This document shows positions 20,232-56,425 of a stretch of 64,000 bases of DNA, one piece after another. A program made the position numbers and the translations under genes. The stretch comes from Spirulinaceae cyanobacterium SM2_1_0. GTDB taxonomy: Bacteria; Cyanobacteriota; Cyanobacteriia; Cyanobacteriales; Spirulinaceae. A model generated the notes under the pieces. The model was given only the letters and a program-made list of their open reading frames with translations. It had not been told where the DNA came from and did no database searches. The stretch lies in NCBI GenBank assembly GCA_012031265.1, contig JAAUTY010000007.1, positions 1-64,000 on the forward strand, written 5' to 3'. How positions within the stretch are numbered: the stretch's first letter is position 1; every line of letters begins with the position of its first letter.

Positions 20232-21119
20232 TTATGATGGCGGCGGCTGGTGGTAGGCGCGAATCATCGCCTGCGTGCCCTGCTCGTCGCCGCCCAGCGC
20301 TTGCACTTGTTCAAAAAATTGCTTGGCCATTGCTGTCCCTGGGATTGCCTGTCCAACGGCGGCGGCATTCGCTTGCACCAGGCGCAGATCCTTGAGCATA
20401 TGTTTGATCGCAAAACCGGGGGCAAAATCGGCGATCGCCACCTTCTCGCCCAGATTCGCCAGCGCCCAAGAACCCGCCGCCCCGCTACCACAGACTTCAA
20501 CAATTTGTTGCGGATCGAGTCCCATTTTCTCCGCCAGCAGCATTGCCTCGCAGATGCCGACCAGGTTAGCAGCGCAGAGGATCTGGTTGCACATCTTCAC
20601 GGCTTGCCCGCTGCCTACCGGCCCGCAGTGGTGGATCTGCGCGCCCATCGCCGCGAAATAGGGCTGAGCCACTGCAAAATCGGCCGCTTCGCCCCCGACC
20701 ATGAAGGTGAGCGTGCCGCGCTGAGCGCCAATGTCACCGCCGGAGACCGGGGCATCGAGGAAACGTAAACCTTGAGCGGCGAGCGATCGCCCCACCGTCT
20801 GCGCCGCCAGCGGCCCGATCGTGCTGGTATCGACGACTAAGGCACCAGCTTTCGCCCCGGTCGCCGCACCCTCGGGCGGCAGCAGCACAGCTTCGACATC
20901 GGGCACGTCGCCGACGCAACTGAAGATGACTTCAGCGTCAGCGACGGCGGCGGCGAGTGAAGAGGCGATCTGCGCCCCGGCGGCAGCGGCAACCTGAACC
21001 CCCGGTCGGTTGGGGGTACGATTCCAGCCGCTGACCGCGAAGCCCGCCCGCGCTAAGTTTGCAGCCATCGCACCGCCCATCGTGCCCAAGCCGAGAAACG
21101 CTAATTTGAGGTCAGTCAT
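20232..21119 (-). CDS. NAD(P)-dependent beta-hydroxyacid dehydrogenase
   Basis: 295 aa. The N-terminus LAFLGLGTMGGAMAANLA is the dinucleotide motif, followed by GWNRTPNR, whose R/T residues suggest NADPH preference. The substrate loop DAPVSGGDIGAQRGTLTFMVGG and the catalytic Lys in GSGQAVKMCNQ are those of 3-hydroxyisobutyrate/tartronate-semialdehyde/succinic-semialdehyde reductases. In cyanobacteria similar proteins reduce succinic semialdehyde or glyoxylate, but motifs do not fix the substrate. It is alone on its strand. Confidence 0.85.
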   Translation of the reverse strand: MTDLKLAFLGLGTMGGAMAANLARAGFAVSGWNRTPNRPGVQVAAAAGAQIASSLAAAVADAEVIFSCVGDVPDVEAVLLPPEGAATGAKAGALVVDTSTIGPLAAQTVGRSLAAQGLRFLDAPVSGGDIGAQRGTLTFMVGGEAADFAVAQPYFAAMGAQIHHCGPVGSGQAVKMCNQILCAANLVGICEAMLLAEKMGLDPQQIVEVCGSGAAGSWALANLGEKVAIADFAPGFAIKHMLKDLRLVQANAAAVGQAIPGTAMAKQFFEQVQALGGDEQGTQAMIRAYHQPPPS

Positions 21120-21324
21120 GTTGTTAGATTGGCTGGCGTTTTGTCTGGCTGGCGATCGCTCACCGTCAGCCGCAGCTTCGGTGACATGGCTGGTAGAGAT
21201 TCGTCGTTATTTTACTCTTACTGGAGAGATTTAGAACAGGTGACACAGCGCGGCACAAGGTGCATGACATTGTTGAGAACTGGGCTGATTTTCGGCTACT
21301 TTCCTGACCAGCCATAGGAAACCC

Positions 21325-21357
21325 GTATCAGGGAATAGATAAGTCTAACCCTGATAC
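21325..21357. promoter_or_regulatory. Perfect 9-bp inverted repeat in the leader of the RGSGR gene
   Basis: GTATCAGGG (21325-21333) and CCCTGATAC (21349-21357) flank a 15-nt spacer and end 11 nt before the ATG at 21369, next to the GGGAG Shine-Dalgarno sequence. The spacer and right arm include GTCTAACCC, which equals one half of the HetR recognition palindrome as I recall it from hetP/patS-type promoters; the other half is not present. The repeat could be an operator or an RNA hairpin that hides the ribosome site. Confidence 0.5.
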
Positions 21358-21368
21358 AGGGAGCTGCT

Positions 21369-21623
21369 ATGCACATTTACGTTTCTCTAATACTGCTGAG
21401 CTTACTATCGATCTCGCTTTCTGTGAAGGCGGATGTAGCGAGCGCTCAGCCAGTGACTGGCCCTACGGAACAGAAGACGGCGGCGAGCTGCAAGTATCCT
21501 TGCAGCGATCGCGGCAGCGGTCGGCGGAGTTTCCGACGGGATGAGGTTGATGTTGAGAAGGCACGGGGTAGCGGCCGTCGCGAAGCGGATCTTCGGACTC
21601 GCAAGCTAGCGAATCTCGGCTAA
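21369..21623 (+). CDS. Small secreted protein with two RGSGR pentapeptides, PatX-like
   Basis: 84 aa from ATG 21369, with a GGGAG ribosome site. Residues 1-20 form a hydrophobic signal peptide (YVSLILLSLLSISL), with possible cleavage after the ADVASAQ region. The mature part has two cysteines (C41, C45) and two identical RGSGRR repeats, RGSGR at 48-52 and 66-70. RGSGR is the active pentapeptide of PatS and of HetN, inhibitors of the regulator HetR; PatX proteins of filamentous cyanobacteria combine a signal peptide with a C-terminal RGSGR-type motif and are of this size. I infer a PatX-like morphogen precursor; the second copy of the motif is unusual. HetR itself is not in the window. Confidence 0.6.
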   Translation: MHIYVSLILLSLLSISLSVKADVASAQPVTGPTEQKTAASCKYPCSDRGSGRRSFRRDEVDVEKARGSGRREADLRTRKLANLG

Positions 21624-21794
21624 GACATCTGCAACTCTCCACCAATCATCAGGGGGATGGTTCTACATCCCTTTTTTGTTGGCTGTTGCTCCCGACCGAC
21701 CAGCGCGCCGCCGTAAAGAAACGCAACATTTCGGCGATCGCCCCCAATCAAGGCAGTATCGTGAGTGAAATCATTTGTGTAGCAAGCGTTACCC

Positions 21795-23765
21795 ATGTCA
21801 CAAGCGACCATTGAATCGATCCTGAAGGAGCAGCGTACCTTTCCGCCGTCACCGGAGTTCGCAGCGCAGGCGTCGATCAGCAGCATGGACGAATATCGGC
21901 AACTCTACGAAAAAGCGCAAGCCGATCCCGCAGGCTTCTGGGCCGAACTCGCCGAGCAAGAATTGCACTGGTTTCAAAAGTGGGATCAGGTGCTCGACTG
22001 GCAGCCGCCCTTTGCCAAGTGGTTTGTCAACGGCAAGCTGAATCTGTCCTACAACTGCCTCGATCGCCACCTGACCACCTGGCGCAAAAATAAGGCAGCG
22101 CTGATCTGGGAAGGCGAACCCGGCGACTCGCGCACCCTCACCTACGCGCAGCTCCACCGCGAAGTCTGCCAGATGGCGAATGTTTACAAGCAACTGGGAG
22201 TGAAGAAGGGCGATCTGGTCGGGATTTATATGCCGATGATCCCCGAGGCCGCGATCGCCATGCTCGCCTGCGCCCGCATCGGCGCAGCCCACAGCGTCAT
22301 CTTCGGCGGCTTCAGTGCCGAGGCGCTCAAAGCACGTCTCCTGGATGCCAATGCCAAGCTGGTCGTCACCGCCGACGGCGGTTTCCGCAAAGACAAGATT
22401 GTGCCGCTCAAACCGGCCGTAGACGAGGCACTGCAAGATGACGGCGTGCCCAGTGTGGACAATGTGCTCGTCGTCCGCCGCACCGAACAGAAAATTCACA
22501 TGGAACCCGGTCGCGACCACTGGTGGCACGACCTGCAAGCCGGTGCGTCCAAAGACTGCCCCGCCGAGCCAATGGACAGCGAGGATCTGCTCTTCATCCT
22601 CTACACCAGCGGCACAACCGGCAAACCAAAAGGCGTCGTCCACACCACCGGCGGCTACAATCTCTACACCCACATCACCTGCAAGTGGACATTTGACCTC
22701 AAGGACACCGATGTCTACTGGTGTACCGCCGATGTCGGCTGGATCACCGGCCACAGCTACATCGTCTACGGCCCACTGTCAAATGGCGCGACCAGCCTCA
22801 TGTTTGAAGGCGCGCCGCGTCCCTCGAATCCCGGCTGCCTCTGGGATGTCGTCGAGAAATACGGCGTCACCATTTTCTACACCGCCCCCACCGCCATCCG
22901 CGCCCTGATCAAGATGGGTGAGCACCTGCCCAATGCCCGCGATCTCTCCTCGCTGCGCATCCTGGGGACGGTCGGCGAGCCGATCAACCCCGAAGCCTGG
23001 ATGTGGTATCACCGCGTCATCGGCGGCGGACGCTGCCCGATTGTCGATACCTGGTGGCAGACCGAGACAGGCGGCTTCATGCTCACACCGCTGCCCGGAG
23101 CGACGGCGACGAAGCCGGGATCAGCGACCTTCCCGTTCCCCGGGATCATCGCCGATATCGTTGACCTCGAAGGCAATCCGGTGGCGGACAATCAGGGCGG
23201 CTATCTCGTTATTAAGCATCCCTGGCCGAGCATGATGCGAACCGTCTATGGCGATGACGAGCGCTTCCGCCGCACTTACTGGGAGCACATTGCCCCCCAG
23301 GATGGGCAATCCCTCTACTTTGCCGGTGATGGCGCGCGTCGCGATGAGGATGGCTATTTTTGGGTGATGGGTCGCGTCGATGACGTGATCAATGTCTCCG
23401 GTCACCGCCTCGGCACGATGGAGGTGGAGTCGGCGCTGGTCTCCCACCCGGCGGTGGCCGAAGCAGCGGTGGTCGGTCGCCCCGATGAGGTCAAGGGCGA
23501 GGATGTCTTTGCGTTTGTCACTTTGGAAGGGAGTGGCGATGGCTCAGAGGCGCTAGCTGAAGAGCTGAAGGCGCATGTGGTGAAGGAAATCGGCGCGATC
23601 GCCCGTCCCAGTGAAATCCGCTTCACCGACGCCATGCCCAAGACCCGCTCCGGCAAGATCATGCGCCGCCTATTGCGCAACCTGGCGGCTGGTCAGGAGG
23701 TCGCAGGTGACACCTCGACGCTGGAAGATCGCAGCGTCCTTGACAAACTACGCGGCGGCGCATAA
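21795..23765 (+). CDS. acs: Acetyl-CoA synthetase (AMP-forming)
   Basis: 656 aa, the normal length. The adenylation signature [17 protein letters not shown] is near residue 270; [10 protein letters not shown] and [20 protein letters not shown] are the core motifs of the family, and [14 protein letters not shown] near the C-terminus holds the catalytic lysine that protein acetyltransferases modify in relatives. The enzyme activates acetate to acetyl-CoA via acetyl-AMP. It is monocistronic, with the hairpin at 23828-23851 downstream. Confidence 0.96.
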
Positions 23766-56014: not shown

Positions 56015-56425
56015 TTAGGAGACTTGCAGATAAGCTTGCGTACAGAAGGCAGCCAAGCGACCGAGGAGCGGATCATCAGCACGAGTCGCCAGCAGTGATT
56101 GCACGCAGTGGACAAACTGACCATCCAGGGTGTCATCGAGCGTCACCGTTTTGCTCGCGGGATAGAGGACTTGAACCTCGGTTTGCAGCTCGTTGGTTGT
56201 CCCCGTCTGCCAGCCCGTCCCATCACGCCGCCAGCAGAGGAAGCGGCCGCGCAAGGTGACTTGAAACCAGTCAATCTCACCGGCTTTCAAATCCACAAAG
56301 ACATCGAAGTAAGGCTCACCGCCCTGATACCAAATGCGGGTCGAGACATCCGCTGGCTTGCGGAGCAGACTCGGGTTGATACGACGGAGAGAGCGACCCA
56401 ACGCTTCCAGTTCAGCACGTTTCAT
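56015..56425 (-). CDS. Conserved cyanobacterial hypothetical protein
   Basis: 136 aa from ATG 56425 (MKRAELEALGRSLRRINPSL). The region VSTRIWYQGGEPYFDVFVDLKAGEIDWFQVTLRGRFLCWRRD suggests a beta-sheet-rich small domain. No motif with known function and no signal peptide. The antisense frame here is a shadow. Confidence 0.55.
   Translation of the reverse strand: MKRAELEALGRSLRRINPSLLRKPADVSTRIWYQGGEPYFDVFVDLKAGEIDWFQVTLRGRFLCWRRDGTGWQTGTTNELQTEVQVLYPASKTVTLDDTLDGQFVHCVQSLLATRADDPLLGRLAAFCTQAYLQVS

Follow-up and report, generated by a model that had tools for sequence, protein, structure and literature searches.

The locus and its upstream region

The analysed window comprises 64,000 nucleotides of contig JAAUTY010000007.1 from Spirulinaceae cyanobacterium SM2_1_0 (genome of 5.03 Mb in 149 contigs; G+C content of the window 56%). 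At positions 21369-21623 it contains a short gene encoding an 84-residue protein, in which the pentapeptide RGSGR occurs twice. The gene is preceded by a divergent dehydrogenase-like gene (20232-21119, minus strand), whose best model, 2-hydroxy-3-oxopropionate reductase, scored 246 bits (below its cut-off of 341), and is followed by an acetate-CoA ligase gene (21795-23765, plus strand; 1016 bits, above the cut-off). The following features were distinguished:

21302..21307, plus strand: DIF1-like box TCCTGA at -67, one base off the consensus TCCGGA
21325..21357, plus strand: inverted repeat GTATCAGGG-N15-CCCTGATAC, a candidate operator near the transcription start (from the sequence; a related dyad occurs in family members)
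21358..21363, plus strand: ribosome-binding-like AGGGAG before the ATG (from the sequence)
21369..21623, plus strand: gene of the PatX-type precursor, running from ATG to TAA and encoding 84 residues; homologues in all 13 family genomes searched
21369..21446, plus strand: residues 1-26, a putative Sec signal peptide with ASA|Q at its end (mean hydropathy of the best 11-residue stretch 2.71; cleavage site placed by eye)
21489..21503, plus strand: C-X3-C pair at residues 41-45, shortly ahead of motif 1; present in 8 of the 13 family members
21510..21524, plus strand: RGSGR copy 1, residues 48-52, context SDRGSGRRS
21564..21578, plus strand: RGSGR copy 2, residues 66-70, context KARGSGRRE
21651..21674, plus strand: intrinsic-terminator-like hairpin 3' of the gene (one found, 0.5 expected by chance)

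Translation, hydropathy and shuffling confirmed what the earlier note had read at this site, i.e. a hydrophobic N-terminus (the signal peptide being putative) and two RGSGRR repeats separated by 13 residues. In 200,000 shuffled versions of the protein a single RGSGR appeared 137 times and a pair never. Forty first-order Markov copies of the window contained on average 0.9 RG[ST]GR over six frames, with no close pairs, against four in the real window. The matches at 56236 (plus strand; a 98-residue stop-to-stop frame with no hydrophobic start) and 23128 (minus strand; a 20-residue frame) were rejected, as neither lies in a plausible secreted frame. The two motifs of the SM2_1_0 gene are spelled with different codons, and therefore do not result from a fresh DNA duplication. 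A Pfam search with the 84-residue protein gave no match.

For the -35 region of promoters driving patX, DIF1 (TCCGGA) has been proposed (PMC7377430). Of 115 patX-like upstream regions, 85 have TCCNGA within -54 to -70, compared with 0 to 5 of the 115 in each of six other bands of equal width. Among 113 distinct 90-base upstream regions, this interval held TCCGGA in 31 cases, TCCTGA in 44 and no such box in 30. A search for a sigma-70 consensus promoter found none.

In family members, the stretch from the DIF1-like box to the start codon of patX contains a dyad, CCGTRTCAGG-N8/9-CCTGAYACGG. Eight of the 13 family genomes have it, each at a single site, always directly upstream of patX (L227-L234), while its reversed control produced no matches over the 13 genomes; the variant at the SM2_1_0 gene has a loop of 15 bases. 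The dyad looks like a patX-specific operator of some regulator. When the best inverted repeat was compared in 108 distinct upstream regions, the promoter surpassed the region further upstream (Wilcoxon p = 2e-4), but the repeat was strong in only nine of them. Another dyad, TCCGTATATCCACGGA, is present at -82 before the hetR gene of SM2_1_0 (L001 765-780). An operator common to hetR and patX is not claimed, as TCCGTATATCCACGGA is absent from eight other hetR upstream regions with a located start (three further hetR loci, whose start was not located by the pattern, were left out of this comparison).

Family homologues and the HetR partner

The Spirulinaceae-type family of SM2_1_0 (f1) includes Spirulina subsalsa FACHB-351 (G071) and Spirulina sp. 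SIO3F2 (G195). Ten homologues, nine from f1, were aligned and used as the query; with a limit of E<=0.1 this revealed a patX homologue in every one of the 13 family genomes, the weakest match having 8.6e-6. Nine of these genomes had contributed rows to the query, and the independent finds are G137, G176, G195 and G196. Used alone as the query, the SM2_1_0 protein detected seven relatives with E values under 1e-4. In 12 of the 13 genomes the homologue has two to four exact copies of RGSGR. Two RG[ST]GR motifs are present in SM2_1_0, G028, G052, G071, G088, G105, G163, G176, G188 and G196, three in G195 (which encodes an additional single-motif protein) and four in G122. G137 combines one RGSGR with RGCGR, and G163 carries RGCGR besides its two RGSGR copies.

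The hetR gene co-occurs with patX in 12 of the 13 family genomes, the exception being G188, whose assembly is 82% complete. In three of these 12 (G122, G163 and G137) patX is located just upstream of hetR on the same strand, with 265-343 bases between the reading frames; such adjacency was not seen in the other nine, SM2_1_0 included, some of which have the genes on short contigs. The earlier note had proposed a search for hetR elsewhere in the genome, and had regarded its absence, together with lack of the motif in relatives, as evidence against its reading: one hetR was found in SM2_1_0 (139 bits), on a different contig from the patX-like gene, and the motif is conserved in the relatives.

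Alignment of the HetR protein of SM2_1_0 (299 residues) with solved HetR structures required no gaps (540 and 516 bits). The protein retains all six residues (R223, E253, E254, D256, D270 and D278) reported as needed for the binding of PatS6, an interaction demonstrated experimentally in Nostoc (PMC4649674). According to the same source, the mature form is argued to be XRGSGR, with any residue at X, N-terminal extension to at least seven residues reduces the affinity, and R223 lies near the C-terminal carboxyl of the peptide (PMC4649674). With this length limit and the position of R223, internal motif copies such as those of SM2_1_0 should need cuts on both sides.

On contig C109 of SM2_1_0 (L162), nifU, nifH and nifD lie in a row, all above their curated cut-offs, so the strain is probably a nitrogen fixer. 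Members of f1 are filamentous and not known to form heterocysts, and no result supported the proposal of the earlier note that this strain patterns differentiation by the peptide.

The NCBI PatX model NF047413 gave the SM2_1_0 protein 15.8 bits, below the 30-bit cut-off, which was reached by none of the ten family relatives scanned. Two of the seven multi-motif proteins scanned did pass NF047413 (L042, four copies, with 98.4 bits and L067, five copies, with 71.8 bits), so several motifs do not exclude membership. On sequence grounds the SM2_1_0 protein is a PatX-type multi-motif variant, not a member of NF047413; it is placed here because of its architecture, its HetR partner, the position of the box and its homology to hetR-linked genes. 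The PatX-like character put forward in the earlier note is supported by the presence of hetR, the homologues in 13 of 13 genomes, the three hetR-adjacent genes and the DIF1-like box at the usual distance.

With PatX (NF047413; Nostoc asl2332) the protein shares small size, putative secretion, RG(S/T)GR and co-occurrence with hetR, which patX in places precedes, and a box resembling DIF1, though one base off in SM2_1_0, lies at about -60; it differs in having two motifs, both internal, and in scoring below the curated cut-off. The 'alternative PatS' of heterocyst formers is likewise a short RGSGR protein other than classical PatS, although it has conserved prolines before Y/HRGSGR (PMC5812504), whereas the SM2_1_0 protein has two copies and the C-X3-C pair. 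PatS and HetN also carry the RGSGR that inhibits HetR. PatS is a peptide of 13 to 17 residues (PMC9284123) and HetN a putative ketoacyl reductase (PMC4649674). Membership in either group was ruled out by length and architecture (84 residues with internal motifs, as opposed to a PatS peptide ending in RGSGR).

Multi-motif precursors in other cyanobacteria

The two-copy form is not peculiar to SM2_1_0. Among 165 distinct complete patX-like proteins, which pool every fetched locus and are not independent by descent, 52 have several motifs (2-17 copies) and 113 a single one. Within the order sample of 195 genomes, 25 of 78 genomes encode a protein with two or more copies (a count that leaves out the f1 members G137 and G176), and only single-motif proteins were seen in the other 53; the 78 are genomes with a fetched RG[ST]GR frame and a hydrophobic start, weaker starts or frameless matches having been dropped (e.g. 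L047, L052, L076). By family, multi-motif forms were present in this sample in 9/9 genomes of f1, 8/8 of f21, 5/5 of f32, 2/9 of f9 and 1/5 of f12. None was found in f2 (12 genomes), f10 (10), f33 (11), f15 (3), f22 (2), f23 (2), f3 (1) or f6 (1). Several f33 proteins have prolines ahead of HRGSGR, a trait described for the 'alternative PatS' of heterocyst formers (PMC5812504), and f33 presumably consists of heterocyst formers.

High copy numbers were found in G096 (17), G008 (11) and G121 (6), and three copies each in Planktothricoides sp. SR001 and the Oscillatoriales metagenome bin S07.Bin090. In the 291-genome class sample, all 19 f45 genomes with matches have a protein with 2-6 copies; this count is biased, since the query was a multi-motif alignment and 31 f45 genomes have hetR as against 19 with a patX match. 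In 16 of the 19 the multi-motif gene precedes hetR on the same strand, at a distance of 843-1339 bases from the HetR_C match (judged from match positions, so that small genes may lie between). In the remaining f45 genomes hetR is on another contig (G275), has no position among the matches listed (G305) or was not found (G426). The eight-copy gene of G374 (f48) is on the same contig and strand as hetR and precedes the HetR_C match by 1723 bases.

The repeat units differ between families, which suggests that copy number expanded several times independently. The copies in four long arrays with codons listed are mostly spelled alike (in G096, three spellings among the first 13 copies), which points to recent DNA expansions, and conservation of the motif there says little. 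By contrast, the motif copies are never spelled alike in nine f1 genes with codons listed.

Several individual observations accompany these data. In G351:C4 (L250), RASGR and RGSGR copies are mixed in one array, the former being possible decoys or a second type of ligand. Contig G008:C156 (L069), from a genome 99% complete, encodes the 11-copy secreted RGSGR protein; neither a family search nor a protein search found hetR in that genome. The HetR of G096, the genome with the 17-copy precursor (L276, L226), has an acidic, EP-rich insert near the C-terminus. Finally, family f2 (L023, L111, L123) has two single-motif patX genes in tandem on the contig and strand of hetR, which may represent another route to a higher copy number.

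The 52 multi-motif proteins present RG[ST]GR in 145 contexts (each distinct context counted once per protein). The first residue after the motif is I, L, V, F, R or K in 138 of them, against a background of 27.2% outside motifs, and the second is D or E in 68 of the 145 (background 18.3%). Where a protein has a single motif (113 proteins), the next residue is R in 49 cases and K in seven, while in 35 the protein ends with the motif. The SM2_1_0 protein, in which R follows both copies, belongs to the R type. We infer that this preference may mark the recognition site of a protease or a trimming enzyme. The sole PatP cut mapped so far, in E. coli, does not directly follow the motif but falls 27 residues ahead of HRGTGR (PMC12756182).

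Proposed mechanism, alternatives and significance

We consider it probable that the SM2_1_0 gene encodes a PatX-type secreted precursor that yields two HetR-inhibiting peptides. The N-terminus would direct the precursor across the inner membrane, and proteolysis outside the cytosol, by analogy with characterised PatX, would release two short XRGSGR peptides per chain. By the same analogy these peptides would arrive at cells along the filament and occupy the lateral clefts of the HetR dimer, and HetR carrying the peptide would detach from DNA. In Nostoc, PatX requires export, PatP cleaves it and HRGTGR inhibits HetR, to which it binds with 88 nM, blocking DNA binding (PMC12756182). Both SM2_1_0 motifs may be released and act on the HetR of the strain, and the extra motif copies would raise the inhibitor yield per precursor. 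The two peptides per precursor envisaged in the earlier note remain plausible, as multi-motif precursors are widespread.

Precursors of the prohormone type, such as those of yeast alpha-factor, neuropeptides and plant peptides, likewise carry several copies of one peptide, with spacers, on one secreted chain. No homology to them is claimed, and RGSGR, unlike their products, is thought to target a cytoplasmic transcription factor and not a surface receptor.

Several observations speak against the PatX-type reading, namely the score below the cut-off (shared by the ten family relatives and by five of the seven multi-motif proteins scanned), the nine of 12 family genomes without hetR adjacency, the DIF1 box one base off, its lack in 30 of 113 patX-like upstream regions, the position of the mapped PatP cut and G008 without hetR. 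The strongest result against a simple HetR-inhibitor reading comes from the non-heterocystous Leptolyngbya BL0902, in which patX also precedes hetR: the transcriptome of the patX deletion is not opposed to that of the hetR deletion, i.e. it does not resemble the loss of a HetR inhibitor (PMC11298460). These transcriptomes suggest PatX effects without HetR (PMC11298460), and a PatX-type protein with a HetR-independent role in the growth of filaments or in cell death, its motif being read by another receptor, would also fit G008, which keeps its 11-copy protein with no detected hetR. We regard this reading as doubtful, though worth keeping in mind, as the peptide-binding residues are intact in the HetR of SM2_1_0 and multi-motif genes are repeatedly located upstream of hetR.

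It is also rather unlikely that the protein is a PatX-type precursor with one functional motif, the other copy being a decaying or spacer sequence. Degenerate copies do exist in relatives (RGCGR in G163 and G137, RGSDR in G014, RASGR in G351), and 53 of the 78 genomes contain only single-motif proteins. Against this, two or more exact copies are present in 12 of the 13 family genomes, five aligned proteins have both motifs unchanged (the four relatives being 29-44% identical to that of SM2_1_0) and the codons differ within the family while the residues stay the same. That the gene encodes no signal at all, but an arginine-rich secreted protein in which RGSGR is structural or fortuitous, is hardly credible: the arginine-rich composition, the lack of a Pfam match and the score below the PatX cut-off are outweighed by the absence of paired motifs in the 200,000 shuffles, the homologues in 13 of 13 genomes, the linkage to hetR and the DIF1-like box.

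We retain the two-peptide PatX-type precursor as the preferred reading. A broader proposal, whose chances we see as evenly balanced, is that outside heterocyst formers PatX of many filamentous cyanobacteria is a polyprotein, i.e. an exported chain with 2-17 inhibitor copies, each followed by a cleavage signature ([ILVFRK], often then [DE]), and that copy number, expanded independently in several families, acts as a gene-encoded dial of inhibitor dose.

In the portions of the RGSGR literature covered here we met no description of several copies per PatX; the founding paper of 2018 lay outside this scope, and novelty is therefore not claimed. That paper, by Elhai and Khudyakov, reportedly introduced PatX and may already mention multi-motif forms.

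PatX has been screened by HMMs at trusted cut-offs, with patX reported in Spirulinales and patP plus hetR without patX in 12.0% of genomes (PMC12756182). In f45, the NCBI PatX model lists no genomes at E<=0.01, yet 19 have multi-motif forms, which warns that model-based surveys can miss PatX. At a guess, some of the genomes classed as 'hetR without patX' in the HMM survey may carry multi-motif forms, although patX was reported there in Spirulinales (PMC12756182).

The role of HetR and PatX in strains without heterocysts has been called a mystery (PMC11298460). The conserved residue after each copy predicts a possible site of the maturation cut. The range of 1 to 17 copies of one inhibitor constitutes a natural series in which to ask whether the amount of inhibitor determines a pattern or a threshold.
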